DNA of 59,421 nucleotides, from contig QHYS01000203.1 of the NCBI GenBank assembly GCA_003223325.1, positions 1 to 59,421 on the forward strand, in the 5' to 3' direction. Source of the stretch: Acidobacteriota bacterium. Lineage in GTDB: Bacteria > Acidobacteriota > Terriglobia > Acidiferrales > UBA7541. This document shows positions 38,351 through 47,536 of the stretch, in pieces; within the stretch, counting starts at the first letter, position 1; the number at the start of each line of letters is the position of its first letter. A program made the translations under genes and the position numbers. The notes under the pieces are model-generated. The model was not told where the DNA came from. It saw only the letters and a list, made by a program, of their open reading frames with translations, and did no database searches.

Positions 38351-38821
38351 CACCGCCTCTGGTTCTCCCTACCTGTGGAGGCGGTCTTTAGCTAGGTCCG
38401 GTTTTCGGATTCCGGCGAGAGTCCACCGGACGCCGGAAACACTGGATTCGTCCTCGAGGAGCGGAAGCGATGCGGGGCCCAGCGCGCCAGTTTTCCGCGT
38501 GTGCCACCGAGGAGTCTCTCTGGAATCGGCGCTTTACTCGTGAGTAAAATAGAGCATGCTCGAAGTTCGCCGGCTTACGGTAGGTGGGCGCGAGGCTCGT
38601 CTCCCCGCACTCCCGCCTGGTCGCCTCCGAATGCACGGGCCAATTTCCTTGCCAGTTGGGAATCCCCTGCTACTTCTTCGCCCATTAGCAGCCTCTTTCA
38701 GAGATTTAGCGCTTAACTGTTGCAGAATGTGCAGTTGCGAAACCATTAGGCTTAAACCGCCTTTAGAATCAACACTTGCAAAAAAACAGTGGGGGGCACC
38801 CATAGTCGAGTTCCGCCTCCC
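38351..38821. other. Noncoding region between rbfA and truB
   Basis: 471 bases without a supported gene. Two hairpins are seen. ACCGCCTC (38352-38359) pairs with GAGGCGGT (38378-38385) right after rbfA, a possible terminator. TTCCGGCG (38410-38417) pairs with CGCCGGAA (38431-38438). A frame from 38556 starts MLEVRRLTVGGREARLP but is not recognised. In many genomes a DHH-type nanoRNase gene lies here; none is visible. Confidence 0.55.
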
Positions 38822-39796
38822 ATGACCCGGAAGCCACGTCCGGCTCCCTACGATGGCGCCCTCGTCATCGACAAGCCCCGCGGCCGCACTTCGCACGACG
38901 TTGTCGAAGCCGTCCGCCGCACGCTCGGTTTTCGCCAGATCGGCCACCTGGGAACGCTCGATCCGCTGGCCACCGGAGTTTTGGTTTTGCTGCTGGGCCG
39001 CGCCACGCGCTTCGCGCAATTTTATGCTGGCCGCCGCAAGCGTTATGAATGCGCCTTTCGCTTCGGCTTTGCCACGGATACCTACGACGCGGACGGCACT
39101 CCGTCCGGAACCGACACCAATCCGCACCTGAACAAAGACGATCTCGAGCGGCTCGTGGTCGGCTTCACGGGCAAATTCCAGCAGACGCCACCCCCTTTTT
39201 CCGCCAAAAAAGTCCACGGCCGTCCGGCGCACCAACTGGCCCGTAAGCAGAAGCCGGTGGAGCTGAAACCGGTCGACGTTGAAGTTTTCGAGTTTCGCCT
39301 TCTCGGTATTGACGGACCCCTGGCGCGTTTCGCGGTGGAGTGTGCCGCCGGCACCTACATTCGTTCGCTTGCCCACGAAATGGGCCAGCAGCTTCGATGC
39401 GCCGCCCATCTCGCCGAGATCGTGCGCACAGCCGTCGGCGAATTCACGCTCGATCACGCCATCAGCCTGAACGATTTCGTGCGCGCAGCGCAGTCTGGCC
39501 GCGCGGCGGAATGGATCGTGCCCCTCAGCAATCTGCTCACGGAATTGCCCCGCGTCTCCGTGCTACCTTTCGTCGAACGCCGTGTGCGCCACGGTTCTCG
39601 TTTTCAAGTCGCACTCTCGCAGGTTCGGGCCGGCCGCCAAGAAATCGCGCAAGGCGCGCCTGCACAGCTCGATTCCGGCAAATGGAAGCCCGCCCGCGTG
39701 CGCGTCTTCAACCAGCAGGAACAACTCATCGCCATTGCCGAAGCTATCGTCCCGCGCACCTATCAGCCCGTCGTCGTGCTGGAGGCCGAAGCGTGA
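38822..39796 (+). CDS. truB: tRNA pseudouridine(55) synthase TruB
   Basis: Makes pseudouridine at position 55 in the T-loop of tRNAs. The 324-residue protein starts at the ATG at 38822 (MTRKPRPAPYDGALVIDKPRG), preceded by a non-homologous stretch in the open frame. The catalytic aspartate is in GHLGTLDPLATGVL (residues about 40-53); family motifs RKRYECAFRFG and AGTYIRSLAHEMG are present. The C-terminal domain is intact. It ends the operon; the secretin gene comes convergently 8 bases later. Confidence 0.95.
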   Translation: MTRKPRPAPYDGALVIDKPRGRTSHDVVEAVRRTLGFRQIGHLGTLDPLATGVLVLLLGRATRFAQFYAGRRKRYECAFRFGFATDTYDADGTPSGTDTNPHLNKDDLERLVVGFTGKFQQTPPPFSAKKVHGRPAHQLARKQKPVELKPVDVEVFEFRLLGIDGPLARFAVECAAGTYIRSLAHEMGQQLRCAAHLAEIVRTAVGEFTLDHAISLNDFVRAAQSGRAAEWIVPLSNLLTELPRVSVLPFVERRVRHGSRFQVALSQVRAGRQEIAQGAPAQLDSGKWKPARVRVFNQQEQLIAIAEAIVPRTYQPVVVLEAEA

Positions 39797-39804
39797 GCTC
39801 AGGC

Positions 39805-42800
39805 TTAGCGTTGTGGATTCGGCGGCTGCGTCCCGGTTGGTGGCGCAGCGGGCAAAGGCGCGTTCGGTCGCGCAGCGGCGGGATTTGGAGGAAGAATCTC
39901 AGGAGCAGTAGCCGGCGGCCCGCCGGGCGCTCCCGGCAGAGGCACAGCGCCCGGTGGCACAACTCCCCCAGGTGGGGCCCCTGGAACCGGAGCTCCCACT
40001 GGCTGGGGCGGCAATTGACCTGGGCCCGGCTGCTCCGGAGGGGCGGCCGTGCCGACTCCCCGACCCGCATAGAATGTGCGACCTTCGCGTGGCGTCAGCC
40101 GTAATTGGCGTGGCGTAATGGCGATCACCAGTTCGGTTTCGGTTTGCTGCTTGCTGCGGTCGCTCGTGAGCGGAGCAAGAAAATTCAGGCCCGGCCATCC
40201 GGTAATGCTGCCAATTTCGCTCGATTCGATCAGGCCCGAGAGAATGCTGGTTTCGTTTGCCCGCAGTCGCACCACTTGCTCGATCGTGCGATTGCTCAAA
40301 ATGGGAATGCCATTCACGTTCTGGCCAGTCAATGCGCTGATGTCAAATTGCATATTCAGCGATACTTCGTCTGGCGGATGCACTCGCGGCGTGGCGTGGA
40401 CTTTCAATCCCAAATCCACGTATTCGGAAGCCGGATAAGAAGCCAGCGGCGCGCTCGAAGAGAGCTGGCTATTCACACTATTGAGGATAACGGAAACGGT
40501 ATTCGCTGACTGATTCGCTACCGCGACATCGAGCAACCCTGTGCTCGCAAAATCTCCCTTTGCTGCCGCGACTGGACTCTTCCCGATAGGAACGCTCAGC
40601 GGTGTAGCGAAGGACGCATTGCCAAGCCCAAGAAAGATGCTGACCGTGTTGGCCGATTCGCATATGACAATTAGGTCTGGAAATGTGCTGGTGCTGAAAT
40701 TCCCAGAGAGCAAAGCCGTTGGACCAGCATCGGTGGTGAAGTTGCTCGGAGCGCCGAATGTGCCGTCGCCATTGCCTAGAAAAATGGACAAGGAATTGTC
40801 GATCTTGTTTGTCACAGCGAGATCCAGCCGGCCATCGCCGTTATAATCCGCGGCTGCAATTGCCGATGGGCCTGCGCCCGTGCCGAAGTCTACACGCTTG
40901 AGAAATGTGCCGTCGGCATTGCCGAGCAACACGGAAACGCTGTTCGAGCCCGCATTCGTTACCGCCAGGTCCTTTTTGCCGTCGCCGTTGAAGTCGCCGG
41001 TGACAAGCGCTGAAGGACTCCTGCCAACGGAAGCATCGAGTTTATTCGCGAACGTGCCGTCCCCATTGCCGAGAAGAACGGAAACCAATCCATCCCCCTG
41101 GTCCAATACTGCCAGATCCAATTTCCCAGCGTTTCTGAAATCGCCCGTGACGACGGCTACCGGGCTGCTGACGCCTGCGATTGTGCTACCCGCCGTGAAC
41201 GTTCCATCACCATTGCCCAACAAAATCGATATGGTGTTGCCCGTGAAGTTCGCCACCGCGAGGTCGAGTTTCCCATCGCCATTAAAATCGCCGGCAACGA
41301 TGGCGTCCGGTCCTAGGCCCGTCGACACGGTAGTTTGCGGTTGGAATGTTCCTTTGCCATTGCCTAATAGGATAGAGACGGTGTTATCACCCTCGTTGGT
41401 TACGGCCAAGTCCAGCTTCCCGTCTCCGTTAAAATCGCCTACCGCAATCGCATTCGGTGAATGCCCCACGGGGAAGTCAGTCCGGGGGAAATTGCCAGTG
41501 AGGTTGCCAGCAAGTGCGGAAGAGGAAAGCTGCGACACCGGTGCGACGAGGCTTGCCGAAAGCAGCGCCAGCGTGATGGGAAAATGCTCGCCGACGAAGA
41601 ACGTCGCGGGACGCCCGTCCTCAACGCGTAGCAGAACGCGCTGCGCGCTTTGCACCATGCTCAGCGTACGGGAGAAATTTGCCGTCGCCCCCGGCAGTGT
41701 CGCCAGGAAAATCGTGTGGCCGCCTCCAAAAGCGATGAGCGGAGGTATCGCCGCGGCCGTGCCACTGGAGGCAGCTAATGGATTTTGCGATCCAAATATG
41801 TTCTGGATAGCTTGGAGAAGGGTGCCCGAACTCTGCGCCTGCTGCAACTCGCGTATCACGCCTGTGGGGAGGGAAAACGTGCTGGCTTTTGAAGGAGGCG
41901 TGATGCCGAGGTTCAGCGCGGCGTGCCGGTCAACTTCGAGCAGATCAACTTCCAGCAGAAACTCCCCCGGCGGCTGCTGTACATCCTTGAGAATCGCTTC
42001 GGCCAGCGCCACGTTTGCAGGCGTATCCCGCACGGTGATGCTGTGTGTCTTCAGATCCAGCACGGTTCGACGGAGACCGACAATATCGCGAACCATGCGC
42101 AGGGCCTCGGTCATTTCATCGTTCGTTTCGGCAGTGGGCAACAGTATGGTTTTTTTGACTTCGGGATCGTAATCGCGGCGTTTGTTGGCCGTGTCGGCGG
42201 CAACGAAAAATGTTTTGGCGTCTAAGGCGAACCAGAATGTATTGGTTTCTTCCGAGAGCAGCCGTATAGCCGTATCGAAATCGACATTCGACACGCGAAA
42301 TCTTATCTGCCGGTCCTGCAGTTCGGGATCGAATGCTGCCGTGACTCCGAATTGCCGCGCCAGTTCCTCATAGGCCCCGTGCGTCGCTCCGTTGTAGTCA
42401 AAGTTGCGCTTACCGGCAGTTGCTTTGATTGCCGGGAGCGCGCTTGCCAAATTGTCGCTTGGAAGAGTCGTGAAGGTGTCCACTTGTGCCAGTTGTTGCA
42501 AGCGTTGCTGTGCGACGTTGTAGCTTGGGTCAACTTGGAGCGCTGATTGCAGCATCGCTCGCGCCAGCGCGAGATTGCCGCTGAGCAGCTGCTTTTCGGC
42601 TTGCTCGGTGCGCTGCTGCGCCAGCGCCGAACGCGCCAGTTGCGCCCGAACTTGAATAGCGCTTTCGTCAGCGGAAAGCGCCGCGGCCTTTTGATAAGCC
42701 CGGAAGGCAGTCTCCCAATCGCCCACGCTCTCGGCACGCTGGCCTTCGTCATAGGCTTCCCGTGCCCTATTCGTGTCGGGAGAACGCAGGTTCGAGTTCC

Positions 42801-42933
42801 CTTGGCCGTTCGCCGTGCCCGGCGACTGCGCCCAAAGCGAGGAAAATGCGAGAGTTACGGAAATTACCGCCAAGACGCCGATCCCGATTCCCACAATCCC
42901 TGGTGCGCGGGGGTCGATTCCGTCACTGCTCAT
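39805..42933 (-). CDS. Secretin-family protein with an inserted FG-GAP beta-propeller
   Basis: A 1042-residue exported protein in this order. A signal-type helix (about 12-36). TPR-like helices (about 55-150) with EAYDEGQRAESVGDWETAFRAYQKAAA. STN/secretin N-domain-like region (about 175-335), including FDTAIRLLSEETNTFWF and DTPANVALAEAILKDV. Then the start of the secretin domain (DLLEVDRHAALNLGI, VEDGRPATFFVGEHFPI). At about 484-818 come seven repeats of about 48 residues with the FG-GAP/VCBS pattern: D-F-N-G-D-G-K-x-D-L-A-V and LLGNGxGTF. The Ca-type DxNGDGxxD site is intact in repeats 1, 2, 4 and 5 and lost in 3, 6 and 7. The secretin resumes at about 845 (YVDLGLKVHATPRVH, NGIPILSNRTIEQVVRLRANETSILSGL). 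A Pro/Gly-rich tail is last. Secretins form outer-membrane pores for secretion or pili. No partner genes lie beside it. Confidence 0.82.
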   Translation of the reverse strand: MSSDGIDPRAPGIVGIGIGVLAVISVTLAFSSLWAQSPGTANGQGNSNLRSPDTNRAREAYDEGQRAESVGDWETAFRAYQKAAALSADESAIQVRAQLARSALAQQRTEQAEKQLLSGNLALARAMLQSALQVDPSYNVAQQRLQQLAQVDTFTTLPSDNLASALPAIKATAGKRNFDYNGATHGAYEELARQFGVTAAFDPELQDRQIRFRVSNVDFDTAIRLLSEETNTFWFALDAKTFFVAADTANKRRDYDPEVKKTILLPTAETNDEMTEALRMVRDIVGLRRTVLDLKTHSITVRDTPANVALAEAILKDVQQPPGEFLLEVDLLEVDRHAALNLGITPPSKASTFSLPTGVIRELQQAQSSGTLLQAIQNIFGSQNPLAASSGTAAAIPPLIAFGGGHTIFLATLPGATANFSRTLSMVQSAQRVLLRVEDGRPATFFVGEHFPITLALLSASLVAPVSQLSSSALAGNLTGNFPRTDFPVGHSPNAIAVGDFNGDGKLDLAVTNEGDNTVSILLGNGKGTFQPQTTVSTGLGPDAIVAGDFNGDGKLDLAVANFTGNTISILLGNGDGTFTAGSTIAGVSSPVAVVTGDFRNAGKLDLAVLDQGDGLVSVLLGNGDGTFANKLDASVGRSPSALVTGDFNGDGKKDLAVTNAGSNSVSVLLGNADGTFLKRVDFGTGAGPSAIAAADYNGDGRLDLAVTNKIDNSLSIFLGNGDGTFGAPSNFTTDAGPTALLSGNFSTSTFPDLIVICESANTVSIFLGLGNASFATPLSVPIGKSPVAAAKGDFASTGLLDVAVANQSANTVSVILNSVNSQLSSSAPLASYPASEYVDLGLKVHATPRVHPPDEVSLNMQFDISALTGQNVNGIPILSNRTIEQVVRLRANETSILSGLIESSEIGSITGWPGLNFLAPLTSDRSKQQTETELVIAITPRQLRLTPREGRTFYAGRGVGTAAPPEQPGPGQLPPQPVGAPVPGAPPGGVVPPGAVPLPGAPGGPPATAPEILPPNPAAARPNAPLPAAPPTGTQPPNPQR

Positions 42934-43062: not shown

Positions 43063-43074
43063 GGTTTTTGTCAC

Positions 43075-43091
43075 TTGCAACTCATTTGCAA
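43075..43091. promoter_or_regulatory. Candidate operator, TTGCAA dyad
   Basis: TTGCAA at 43075-43080 and TTGCAA at 43086-43091, each itself a palindrome, flank CTCAT. The 17-base site is placed to block the start of transcription. The right half (TCATTTGC) resembles half of a Fur-type operator. An iron regulator is a natural guess given the genes, but the protein is not known. Confidence 0.4.
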
Positions 43092-43105
43092 CTGGGACTT
43101 GCCTT

Positions 43106-44368
43106 TTGATCTCCTCCTTCCTAATTGCTCTGCGTGAGGGCGCTGAGGCCGCTCTGGTCGTGGGCATTGTATTTGTCTATCTGGACCGCACCGGCCGCTC
43201 CCGACTGGCCCGCTTCGTCTGGGCAGGCGTAGCTTTAGCCGCTGCCTTGAGTCTGGCGTCAGCAATCGCCCTGGAACGTTGGCAGATCAGCGAAGACGGC
43301 TTCGAAGGCCTTTTGATGCTCCTCGCCGCAGTCTTCGTTGTCACAATGATTGTTTGGATGAACCGCGTGGCGCGCCACTTGCGCAAACAAATCGAGGAGC
43401 GGGTCGAGTTGTTTGCGCAGAAGACCGATTTGGCCGCTGGGCTAGGCCTTGGCGCTTTTGTCTTCCTGATGGTTTTGCGGGAGGGGGCAGAGCTGGCGCT
43501 GATCTTGCGAGCCGTGGAGCTTTCGACGGAAGGTGTAGCGGTTTGGATCGGTACAGGACTCGGGCTGGCGCTCGCCATTGCCATCGGTTTCTTTTTCTTT
43601 GAAGGCACCCTAAAGATCCCCTTGGGCCGCTTCTTTGCGGTGACCAGCGCAATTCTCGTAATCGTGTCCGTGCAATTGGCGCTGACGGGCTTGCACGAGA
43701 TGAGCGAGGCCATGTGGCTGCCTTCGGGCAAACGCGAAATGGCGATAGTGGGACCAATTGTCCGGAACGAGTATTTTTTCTTTGTGGTTATTCTGGGTGC
43801 GGCGGCGCTGCTGATTCTTCGGGAGTGGCGCTCGATGCACCTCGCAGCCGCGCCTGAAGGCGCAAATGACGCTGACCGGCGCCGAATTCGCTGGGAGCGA
43901 CGTACGCAGAGCCGCTGGATGTTTACCGCGGCCGTGCTCTTCGTCATCGTGATCCTTACGCTGACTGCCGACTTCGTCTATGCGCGTGTCTCGGCCGCGC
44001 CTCCGCAAGCTCAGACCGTCACTGCGCAAAATGGCGCAGTGCGCATTCCTACGGCGGAAATAAGCGACGGCAACTTGCACTTTTTTCAGGTGGAAACCAA
44101 CAATACCTCCTTGCGCTTTACCGTTATACACAAGCCCGACGGCAATTGGGCGACGGCTCTGGACGCTTGCATGATCTGCGGATGGGCCGGCTACCGACAG
44201 AGCGGATCAGAAGTCATTTGCCGTAACTGCGCCTCGGCGATTTATGTTCCGAGCATTGGCCAAACGGGCGGCTGTAATCCGGTGAGCGTTCCTTCGCACC
44301 TCGATGGCAGCGGACTGGTGATTGACGTCTCCGCCTTCACCGATGCCGCGCGTCGAGTTCCGCAGTAG
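43106..44368 (+). CDS. FTR1-type iron permease fused to a DUF2318 domain
   Basis: A 420-residue membrane protein. Residues 1-280 form an FTR1-family iron permease with seven or so helices and both REGAE motifs (10-14 and about 125-129). The C-terminal part (about 305-410) is a DUF2318-type periplasmic metal-binding region with Cys motifs: CMICGW, CRNCAS and GGCNP. In Campylobacter-type systems these are separate proteins beside a P19 protein and an ABC transporter. Here the two are one polypeptide and no P19 gene is seen. TTG start at 43106. Transport is probably ferrous or ferric iron across the inner membrane. It is followed by two permeases and an ATPase. Confidence 0.88.
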   Translation: MISSFLIALREGAEAALVVGIVFVYLDRTGRSRLARFVWAGVALAAALSLASAIALERWQISEDGFEGLLMLLAAVFVVTMIVWMNRVARHLRKQIEERVELFAQKTDLAAGLGLGAFVFLMVLREGAELALILRAVELSTEGVAVWIGTGLGLALAIAIGFFFFEGTLKIPLGRFFAVTSAILVIVSVQLALTGLHEMSEAMWLPSGKREMAIVGPIVRNEYFFFVVILGAAALLILREWRSMHLAAAPEGANDADRRRIRWERRTQSRWMFTAAVLFVIVILTLTADFVYARVSAAPPQAQTVTAQNGAVRIPTAEISDGNLHFFQVETNNTSLRFTVIHKPDGNWATALDACMICGWAGYRQSGSEVICRNCASAIYVPSIGQTGGCNPVSVPSHLDGSGLVIDVSAFTDAARRVPQ

Positions 44369-44378
44369 GCCACGCACC

Positions 44379-45698
44379 GTGTTCGTCCGGCTTATCACAG
44401 ACTCCTTCACGCGGCAGCCGCGGCGCAAGCTGCTCACCACCGTTGCCCTTGCGCTCGGCACAGCCATCGCCACGGCAACGCTCACGGTCGCGCTAGATGT
44501 AGGCGACCGGCTGGCTCGCGAATTCCGCACCTTGGGTGCCAACCTCCGGGTCACTCCGGAGGCAGACACACTTCCGCTGGAGATCGGCGGCGTAGATTAC
44601 CGGCCGGTTGATTCCGGTGTCTTTTTGTCCGAGGCGCAGTTGGGTGAGCTGAAAACGATCTTCTGGCGCAATAACGTCATCGGTTTTGCACCCTTTCTCG
44701 ATATACCGATCGTGATAACTTCTGTCGGGAATGGTGATTACTTGAAATCTTACCCGAACCCGAACGATCCTGCGTTGCGTACGACGCTGATCGGTACGTG
44801 GTATCGGCATAACGTGCCGGTTCCAAATGGCGGAGGCGTTTTCAGCACGGGCGTGGCCTCCACAAATCCGGGATGGCAAATCGAGGGACGCTGGTTTTCC
44901 GATGATTCAGCTGAAGCCGTCCTGGGCTCGAATCTCGCCCACCGCGGAGCCATTAAGACCGGCCAGATGCTCGAAATCCGTGCCGGTGACGCCCGTTCGC
45001 AACTCATTGTCACGGGTATCATCTCGACTGGCGGGCCGGAAGACGATGCGATTATTGCACCGCTCGTGATCGCGCAGCGACTTTCGGGGAAAGCGGGGCA
45101 ATATCGGCAGCTTTTGGTGAGCGTGTTGACGAAGCCTGAAGATGCCTTTTCCCAGCGCGATCCCAAATCAATGAACCCGGCCGAATTTGACCGCTGGTAT
45201 TGTTCGCCTTATATCTCGTCGATCTCGCGGCAGATTCAGGAGCAGTTGCCCGGAGTCACTGTGCGGCCCATACGACAGGTTGCCGAAGGCGAAGGCCAAA
45301 TTCTCTCGCGGGTGCAAGCTTTGATGTGGCTGGTCACGTTTGCGGCGTTATTGGCGGCCGCGCTTGCCGTTGCGTCCACCGCTGGGACTACGGTTCTGGA
45401 AAGAACTGCCGAAGTCGCTCTGATGAAGGCCCTGGGAGCGCGCCGCAGGCTGGTGGGCGCGTTCTTTCTCGGAGAACAGTGGTTCATGGCGATCGTCGGG
45501 GGACTACTGGGTTACGTGGGTGGGCGGGGTCTTGCATACACGCTGGGCCAGCACGTTTTTGGAGTTTCACCGAGCACAAGATTGATCCTGCTTCCTGTGA
45601 TTCTGGGGCTCGCGGCAGCCGTAGCAACCGCGGGAAGCCTGCTTCCATTGAGAAGGGTAATGCAGCTAGATCCAGCGCCCGCCTTACGCGGCGAATAG
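44379..45698 (+). CDS. FtsX/MacB-type ABC permease, iron-operon first copy
   Basis: A 439-residue permease with an N-terminal TM helix (residues about 13-35, KLLTTVALALGTAIATATLTVAL), a large extracytoplasmic domain, and three C-terminal helices. The coupling segment between the helices is MKALGARRRLVGAFF. GTG at 44379 follows the FTR1 stop; the frame opens at 44322 and an ATG at 44343 overlaps the FTR1 end, so the start is uncertain. Works with the next permease and the ATPase at 46865. A homologous pair accompanies P19/FTR1 iron systems in other bacteria. Confidence 0.85.
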   Translation: MFVRLITDSFTRQPRRKLLTTVALALGTAIATATLTVALDVGDRLAREFRTLGANLRVTPEADTLPLEIGGVDYRPVDSGVFLSEAQLGELKTIFWRNNVIGFAPFLDIPIVITSVGNGDYLKSYPNPNDPALRTTLIGTWYRHNVPVPNGGGVFSTGVASTNPGWQIEGRWFSDDSAEAVLGSNLAHRGAIKTGQMLEIRAGDARSQLIVTGIISTGGPEDDAIIAPLVIAQRLSGKAGQYRQLLVSVLTKPEDAFSQRDPKSMNPAEFDRWYCSPYISSISRQIQEQLPGVTVRPIRQVAEGEGQILSRVQALMWLVTFAALLAAALAVASTAGTTVLERTAEVALMKALGARRRLVGAFFLGEQWFMAIVGGLLGYVGGRGLAYTLGQHVFGVSPSTRLILLPVILGLAAAVATAGSLLPLRRVMQLDPAPALRGE

Positions 45699-45737
45699 GT
45701 CCGCCAAGCGAGCGCCGTTACTGCGCAATCCGACAAG

Positions 45738-46868
45738 ATGTTCTGGCGTATTCTTTGGCGATTGCTGTATGCGAGCCGCGGACGGCTTGCGCTGGCCGTC
45801 TTTGCTGTGGCCAGCGGCGCGGCCGTTTCCGCAGCCTTGCTGAATCTAGACCTGGATGCTACCGACAAGCTCACACGGGAATTCCGAGTGCTGGGCGCCA
45901 ATGTCGTAATCTCAGCGGCCCAGAACGGCGATGCCGCAGCCACACTGGATACCGAAGAGATGAACCAAATCGAGCAATTACACCTGCCGGAAGTTGTCGC
46001 TGCTACGCCTTATCTTTATCTACCAGCGCAAGCCGAGGCGGTGGGGAACCACGCTGCCGTAATCGTGGCGGGGACCTCGCTCGACGAAGCAGCCCGCATG
46101 AATTCGTGGTGGAAAGTGGAAGGGGATTGGGTCAGCGCCCGCGATAACCGTTCCGATTGCATGATCGGAGAACAAGCGGCCTCGCGTCTCGGGCTGATTC
46201 CCGGGCAAAGCGTCAAAATACATTATGCAGGGCGTGAAGCGACGCTTCGCGTCGCTGGCATCGTCACGGCGGGGAGTTCCGAGGATAGTCAAATGTTTAT
46301 TGGCCTGCCCTTGGCCCAGGCGCTGGCTGGTCTGGAAGCGCGCGCTAGTCTGATTCAAGTCATGGCGCGCGGCTCTGCGCCTGAAATCGAAGACGTGATT
46401 CGCCGCCTGTCGATCGCCCTGCCGGGTTTGCAGGTGCGTCCGCTGCGTCAGTTAGCAGAAGCCGAAGGCCGCCTCCTCGAACGTATTCGCGGGCTGCTTT
46501 TCGGCACGGTTCTGTTGATTCTCGTGCTCACATCGCTGGGCGTTCTGGCGGCCATGGCGGGGCTCGCGCTGGAGCGGCGGCGCGACGTCGGACTCATGAA
46601 AGCGCTCGGTGGTTCGGTGCGCAAGATCATGCGATTTTTCCTGGCCGAAGCGACCGCCATTGGTTTTGCAGGCGGAATTTTTGGATTCATCGCGGGCATG
46701 GCTCTCTCCGAGTGGATTGGCGAACGCGTTTTCTCCGTATCTATAGCTCCTCGATTGGTCGTTTTGCCTGCCACTCTGGCATTGATGGTGCTTGTATCGC
46801 TCGCCGGAGCGCTTCCCTTGCGCTTATTAGGGCGCGTGCGGCCGTCGGACATTCTGCGGGGTGAATGA
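45738..46868 (+). CDS. FtsX/MacB-type ABC permease, iron-operon second copy
   Basis: A 376-residue permease with the same layout as the previous gene: N-terminal helix, periplasmic domain (about 35-240), and three C-terminal helices; the coupling segment is LMKALGGSVRKIMRFFLAEA. Start ATG at 45738. Alignment by eye shows it as a paralogue of the first permease (for instance TREFRVLGANVVIS here, AREFRTLGANLRVT there). It overlaps the ATPase gene by 4 bases. It probably forms a heterodimer with the first permease. Confidence 0.85.
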   Translation: MFWRILWRLLYASRGRLALAVFAVASGAAVSAALLNLDLDATDKLTREFRVLGANVVISAAQNGDAAATLDTEEMNQIEQLHLPEVVAATPYLYLPAQAEAVGNHAAVIVAGTSLDEAARMNSWWKVEGDWVSARDNRSDCMIGEQAASRLGLIPGQSVKIHYAGREATLRVAGIVTAGSSEDSQMFIGLPLAQALAGLEARASLIQVMARGSAPEIEDVIRRLSIALPGLQVRPLRQLAEAEGRLLERIRGLLFGTVLLILVLTSLGVLAAMAGLALERRRDVGLMKALGGSVRKIMRFFLAEATAIGFAGGIFGFIAGMALSEWIGERVFSVSIAPRLVVLPATLALMVLVSLAGALPLRLLGRVRPSDILRGE

Positions 46869-47536
46869 TGGCTGCATTGGTTCAGGTCGAAGACATCTCG
46901 AAAACGTTCGGAGGAGTGCGGGCGCTCGATCGCGTCACTTTCGAGGTGTGTTCGGGGGAATGGATCGCCATTATGGGCCCCTCCGGTTCAGGCAAGACCA
47001 CTCTGATCAATATTCTTGGCGGCCTGGACCGGCCGACGAGCGGGCGTGCCATCGTTGACGGGCTGAACGTCGGAACGCTCGGCGAACGCGAATTGACGCG
47101 CTATCGGGCGGAGAAAATCGGATTTATCTTCCAGCATTTTTATCTGGTGCCCTATCTTTCCGCTGTCGAAAATGTGATGCTCGCTCAATACTTCCACAGT
47201 ATCGCGGACGAGGCCGAGGCGGCAGGTTCTCTGGCGCGCGTGGGTTTAGGAGACCGGCTGCATCATCTACCCAGCCAGCTTTCGGGCGGCGAGCAACAGC
47301 GAGTTGCACTGGCCCGGGCCCTGATCAATCATCCGAAGCTTATTTTGGCGGACGAGCCGACCGGAAATCTCGATGAGGCCAATGAGCAAATCGTGCTGGA
47401 AATACTGCGGGAACTACATCGCTCGGGGCACACCATACTGCTGGTCACGCACTCGGGAGAGATCGGACGCATGGCCGACCGGCGGATCGAGCTGGCGCAT
47501 GGGCGTCTGATGCACATCGTTGCGAATGTGACTTAG
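46865..47536 (+). CDS. ABC transporter ATPase of the iron operon
   Basis: A 223-residue ATPase of the MacB/LolD group. Walker A GPSGSGKTT, signature [15 protein letters not shown], Walker B LILADEPTGNLDEA, and H-loop VTHS. The ATG at 46865 overlaps the stop of the second permease, and a second ATG follows directly. It powers the two FtsX-type permeases. Such ABC modules beside FTR1 and DUF2318 are linked to iron acquisition; the exact substrate of the ABC part is not known. Confidence 0.9.
   Translation: MMAALVQVEDISKTFGGVRALDRVTFEVCSGEWIAIMGPSGSGKTTLINILGGLDRPTSGRAIVDGLNVGTLGERELTRYRAEKIGFIFQHFYLVPYLSAVENVMLAQYFHSIADEAEAAGSLARVGLGDRLHHLPSQLSGGEQQRVALARALINHPKLILADEPTGNLDEANEQIVLEILRELHRSGHTILLVTHSGEIGRMADRRIELAHGRLMHIVANVT

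Follow-up and report, generated by a model that had tools for sequence, protein, structure and literature searches.

Secretins assemble as rings of 12-15 subunits in the outer membrane, and their gate opens by swinging upward. Their central gates have been viewed as short loops whose sole job is sealing. In XcpD, the central gate spans residues 466-496 with G466 as pivot (PMC10550240), and the hinges of Gate 1 in f1pIV are the same two glycines (PMC8563730). Extra structures have been described elsewhere on secretins: the top gate of the Vibrio type is inserted in the lip, between alpha10 and alpha11 (PMC10550240), and PilQ of Thermus thermophilus is topped by 13 spikes that form a crown outside the membrane (PMC5745081). 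A literature search for secretins containing FG-GAP repeats returned nothing relevant. Here, we analyzed a secretin gene in a stretch of 59,421 nucleotides (the window) from Candidatus Acidiferrales, an uncultured group of soil acidobacteria. The gene, its parts and its neighbors are as follows.

39805..42933, minus strand: whole ORF of 1042 aa, an orphan TPR-secretin with a propeller inserted in its gate (ORF translation, Pfam)
42826..42933, minus strand: N-terminus, signal-peptide-like, residues 1-36 (by eye)
42469..42774, minus strand: TPR-like helical region, residues ~54-155 (weak Pfam TPR matches; helices in the model)
42196..42408, minus strand: N0/STN-like alpha-beta domain, residues ~176-246 (secondary structure of the model; Foldseek of the orthologue L120)
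41980..42189, minus strand: N1/N3-type ring-building domain, residues ~249-318 (Secretin_N; model)
41590..41964, minus strand: first half of the secretin domain, to pivot G448 of VGEHFPI (profile alignment with GspD, XcpD and PilQ; invariant G and P)
41485..41589, minus strand: first Gate 1 arm and tether, residues 449-483 (model, tether lengths)
40486..41484, minus strand: closed seven-blade FG-GAP beta-propeller, residues 484-816 (repeats, model, structural match)
40411..40485, minus strand: return tether followed by the second Gate 1 arm, residues 817-841 (model, tether lengths)
40099..40422, minus strand: second half of the secretin domain, residues 838-945, with pivot G842 of YVDLG (PF00263; profile alignment)
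39808..40098, minus strand: C-terminal tail rich in Pro, Gly and Ala, residues 946-1042 (translation)
38789..39796, plus strand: truB, convergent neighbor
43106..44368, plus strand: FTR1 iron permease with a fused FtrD-like Fe-S membrane domain, divergent neighbor
44322..47536, plus strand: two FtsX/MacB-like permeases and an ABC ATPase, in the same operon as FTR1
43071..43095, no strand assigned: conserved palindrome in the promoter region common to the secretin and FTR1, core TTGCAA-N5-TTGCAA at 43075-43091

All 1042 aa are encoded in a single open frame, with the domain order TPR, N-domains and secretin according to Pfam and the structural model. The Pfam Secretin domain (PF00263, E 1.9e-17) was detected at residues 821-942, from model position 40 onward, and thus covers the second half only. 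The Secretin_N match was weak in the window protein and exceeded the curated cut-off in the orthologue L120, which has no insert and whose Foldseek search matched the N-domains of EscC and XcpQ. The motif VGEHFPI (447-453) precedes the insert and YVDLG (838-842) follows it. The earlier note had placed the interruption of the secretin after GEHFPI near residue 465; the motif was correctly identified, and its position is 448-453.

We then used a profile made of 14 homologues lacking the insert plus the window protein, which was searched against the PDB. This profile matched GspD, XcpD, PulD, PilQ, RcpA and InvG, and the best match (GspD, E 2.3e-31) ran over the whole domain. In the alignment with the 14 homologues, the insert lies between GERFPV and a P(F/Y)PxxxYEDLG stretch. 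VGEHFPI and YVDLG of the window protein aligned with VGQNVP and RKDIG of XcpD (5WLN), whose glycines are at chain positions 432 and 462; with the offset of 34 these are residues 466 and 496, which places the insert between the two glycines that hinge the central gate (Gate 1). Both pivot glycines (G448 and G842) and the GxxxP motif were invariant in an alignment of 49 sequences. The distance between pivots was 393 residues in the window protein and 383-695 in its family, against 31-55 in the insert-less relatives. The tethers were of near-constant length in the family, with 25-37 residues before the propeller and 23-33 after it, and the variation between pivots comes from Ig-like domains (He_PIG, Big_2) located between blades in some species. 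He_PIG or Big_2 was observed between propeller blades in L113, L117 and L096, with the seven blades kept. In the models of L120 and of the window protein, the gate strands before the insert had the same lengths, 12 residues each (model 400-411 and 416-427 in one, 390-401 and 406-417 in the other). Every top Foldseek match of the L120 model was a secretin, and the window model matched InvG, PilQ and PulD across the insert. These alignments put the propeller in Gate 1 of the secretin, with its insertion point inside the channel. The pore lip or outer face, where the earlier note had expected the insert, is therefore not where it maps, and an insertion in the lip or top gate was rejected by the alignment with XcpD and GspD.

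The insert itself was recognized by FG-GAP_3 as seven stretches (E 1.2e-53, Pfam). Repeats start at residues 493, 542, 591, 640, 689, 738 and 787, a spacing of exactly 49 residues; the number proposed earlier was thus right, and the proposed length of about 48 residues was slightly short. The calcium-site motif DxNGDGxxD was present in blades 1, 2, 4 and 5, in agreement with the four such repeats announced earlier. In the orthologues, the DxDxDG calcium sites varied across species and blades, from 1 to 7 per protein, and their comparison revealed no single conserved ligand site. AlphaFold2, run on residues 38-950 with 49 sequences, gave a propeller (model 445-780) with a pLDDT of about 97 and a strand list of 1 + 6x4 + 3, that is 28 strands in seven blades. 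The N-terminal edge strand completes the seventh blade, so that both ends of the propeller meet, as required for insertion into a hairpin. With VIA-align, in which the rows of the window model covered its propeller only and L120 served to examine the secretin part, the first match was integrin alphaIIb (Z 35.2, rmsd 2.3 Å over 322 residues, model 441-788). These results support the closed, seven-bladed propeller proposed from the repeats. The pTM was 0.46 and the pLDDT of the tethers was below 50 (model 419-443 for the first), so the model does not predict how propeller and barrel are placed with respect to each other. The same genome encodes another FG-GAP protein (L160, G000 C239) with twelve detected repeats, many at the same 147-bp spacing, and the propeller may derive from this protein or be related to it.

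With the part before the insert as query, 40 of 41 genomes sampled from the window's family yielded an orthologue, the remaining one (G186) giving a weak, paralogue-like match only. A scan of named genomes returned 64 loci, nearly all from Acidobacteria (gp2) or Candidatus Acidiferrales. Exactly seven repeats were detected at the same junction in 48 loci besides the window, all from independently assembled genomes, and most of the other loci had six detected repeats or were cut by contig ends. Homologues with the same order, as sought by the earlier note, are thus numerous. In the nine of ten pairs of close relatives for which a ratio was obtained, dN/dS (omega) was 0.05-0.20 for the propeller and 0.06-0.16 and 0.03-0.18 for the two secretin halves, so that purifying selection is as strong on the propeller as on the secretin parts. 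An assembly artefact or the fusion of two genes, the error feared in the earlier note, was rejected on the basis of the orthologues, the 48 loci and these ratios. When all blades of 49 proteins were scored against each other, the blade at the same position had the highest or near-highest mean score, and it was the commonest best partner for every blade except blade 2. Recent shuffling or amplification of blades was rejected, since most blades match best by position across species. Together with the constraint, this correspondence by position means that the module is old and vertically inherited.

The insert was found in one family of Candidatus Acidiferrales only. It was absent from L052 and L053, which belong to two other families of the order, from other families of the class, and from L120 (G126), the only sampled family member with an orthologous secretin and no propeller; the FTR1 neighbor is also absent from this locus. 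The state of L120 may reflect a late loss of the insert or an early branch. Among the matches listed for 119 genomes of other families of the phylum, no FG-GAP/secretin fusion long enough for a propeller was present, and the long secretin ORFs of other families (L162-L164) had normal short gates, with their extra length elsewhere and no propeller. Two loci deserve a separate mention. In L074, a close relative with 89% identity before the insert, the propeller is broken into two frames near blade 5, by a sequencing error or a real break. The secretin of L131, from a genome titled Betaproteobacteria, nests among Acidiferrales with the same truB and FTR1 neighbors, and this genome is probably mislabeled or mis-binned.

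We propose that the propellers inserted in the gate gather at the pore mouth or beyond it as a cap or crown, serving both as ligand-binding heads and as a moving plug, a proposal to which we give about an even chance. In each subunit, the tip of the Gate 1 hairpin would be replaced by a closed seven-blade FG-GAP propeller held on two flexible tethers. A ring of 12-15 subunits, anchored as an ordinary secretin barrel, would thus bear 12-15 propellers. The gate hinges are retained, and the propellers would pack into this cap or crown, acting as adhesin or receptor heads that bind a ligand and also as a plug displaced when the gate swings open. We infer the extracellular placement, the ligand binding and the coupling of binding to gating.

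The size of the propellers bears on their placement. Each has a volume of about 45,000 cubic angstroms, and 12-15 of them, packed solid, would take up about 108-176 Å of a lumen 70-80 Å wide. By comparison, the total height of f1pIV from the outer face to N3 is 96 Å (PMC8563730). Too bulky for the lumen and held by flexible tethers, the propellers may end up at the extracellular mouth, and tethers of more than 20 residues on an outward-swinging gate make an extracellular crown or cap the simplest arrangement. Ig-like additions are typical of surface adhesins, and the Ig-like domains observed between blades fit such a crown for this reason. The crown of Thermus PilQ offers a precedent. Alternatively, the propellers could have a periplasmic or luminal location. 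On the periplasmic side, inside the lumen or beneath it, they would seal the wide pore as an internal plug and leave on binding a partner, with no extracellular ligand involved. The insert does occupy the closing loop itself, its flexible tethers permit either side of the gate, and an orphan secretin has no pilus or pseudopilus filling its pore, so that sealing is needed, as gate mutants leak. Nevertheless, 12-15 copies exceed the volume of the lumen, and Ig-like insertions between blades make the head still larger. Moreover, a normal gate of 31-55 residues suffices for the insert-less orthologues and for orphan secretins in other families. We consider such an internal plug unlikely.

The genes around the secretin were then considered. 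The earlier note had suggested looking for accompanying secretion or pilus genes; none was found beside the window secretin, whose neighbors are truB and the FTR1 operon. By comparison, GspD is encoded with T2SS genes and PilQ of type 4 pili with pilMNOP, and the window gene is not. Other secretins of the same genome were located, by eye, near a pilM-like ORF (C156) and beside a pseudopilin-like gene (C118). The window gene is an orphan secretin without adjacent secretion machinery. This absence of secretion genes would also suit a secretin-derived scaffold that has lost its channel function and only displays or stores propellers. Such a loss is very improbable, as neither the pivot glycines nor the GxxxP motif vary, both secretin halves have an omega of about 0.03-0.18 and the orthologue L120 has an intact secretin fold.

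The divergent genes FTR1-FtrD, the FtsX/MacB-like permeases and the ABC ATPase (43106-47536) form a FetM/P19-like iron import operon. FTR1 was adjacent and divergent in 45 of the 54 loci with sufficient flank, and truB was adjacent in 42 of 52. The truB/FTR1 order was also found around the insert-less L052, and FTR1 around L053, indicating a neighborhood older than the insert. The palindrome has the consensus CYAGTTGCAA-N5-TTGCAACTRG and occurs in most upstream regions. Allowing up to one mismatch over the 12 core positions, 31 of 60 upstream regions contained it, compared with about 0.5 expected from shuffling, and no other site in the window genome came closer to the extended pattern than three mismatches. 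It resembles the Nur-box consensus of the Fur family (PMC3919588) and is a candidate operator. An E. coli-type Fur box in the shared promoter scored no better than shuffles.

These observations bear on a role in iron acquisition, in which the secretin would partner the divergent FTR1/FtrD/ABC genes under a shared metal-responsive operator, with the propeller binding an iron source or a mineral surface. The recurrent FTR1 operon, present also beside insert-less secretins of two other families, and the Nur-box-like palindrome speak for it. Against it, the neighborhood may be an inherited gene order, like truB on the other side, the operator lies directly upstream of FTR1, which may be its only target, and the promoter lacks an E. 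coli-type Fur box. In addition, an FTR1 neighbor is missing both from L120 and from the orphan secretins found in other families of the class, and secretins are not known to act as iron channels. We regard this role as quite unlikely. It is also rather doubtful that the secretin is ligand-responsive, the binding of an extracellular target by the ring of integrin-like propellers on the gate loops directly opening or closing a large outer-membrane channel, possibly for iron acquisition.

Returning to the cap or crown, the architecture suggests a channel gate carrying a ring of binding heads. A propeller built into a secretin gate has apparently not been described before. A folded domain of about 340 residues, present at the gate family-wide with the hinges intact, means that such a gate can carry cargo. 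It makes testable the crossing of a propeller to the outside, the gating of a secretin by a ligand and the role of the acidobacterial orphan secretins, and it provides a natural precedent for engineered secretin gates.

Compared with known systems, the window protein shares with the T2SS secretins GspD, XcpD and PulD (PF00263; 5WLN, 5ZDH, 6HCG) the VGxxxP...G gate motifs and the N-terminal ring-building domains. It differs from them by a central gate of 393 residues with a folded propeller, where theirs has about 29, by its N-terminal TPR and by the lack of adjacent gsp genes. The orphan TPR-secretins L063, L064, L067, L068, L072 and L073, from other Terriglobia families and with varying gene neighborhoods in which recognized secretion genes were not seen, have the same domain order and GxxxP gate motif, but their Gate 1 is 34-55 residues long and without propeller. 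With the integrin alpha propeller and the FG-GAP (VCBS) propellers, the insert has seven FG-GAP blades in common. Only this propeller fold is common with the integrin alpha chain: identity is about 16%, the blades are of 49 residues and lie inside a secretin, and there are no thigh, calf or transmembrane regions and no beta-subunit partner. The nearest known ideas are the Vibrio top gate and the Thermus PilQ crown, neither of which is a central-gate insertion. Vibrio-type top-gated secretins likewise have an extra module able to occlude the mouth, but at the apical lip, whereas here the insert maps to the central gate. PilQ of Thermus thermophilus resembles the proposed arrangement by a possible multi-spike crown on the outer face of a secretin; its crown is a separate, unidentified protein (PMC5745081), whereas here the module is within the secretin chain.
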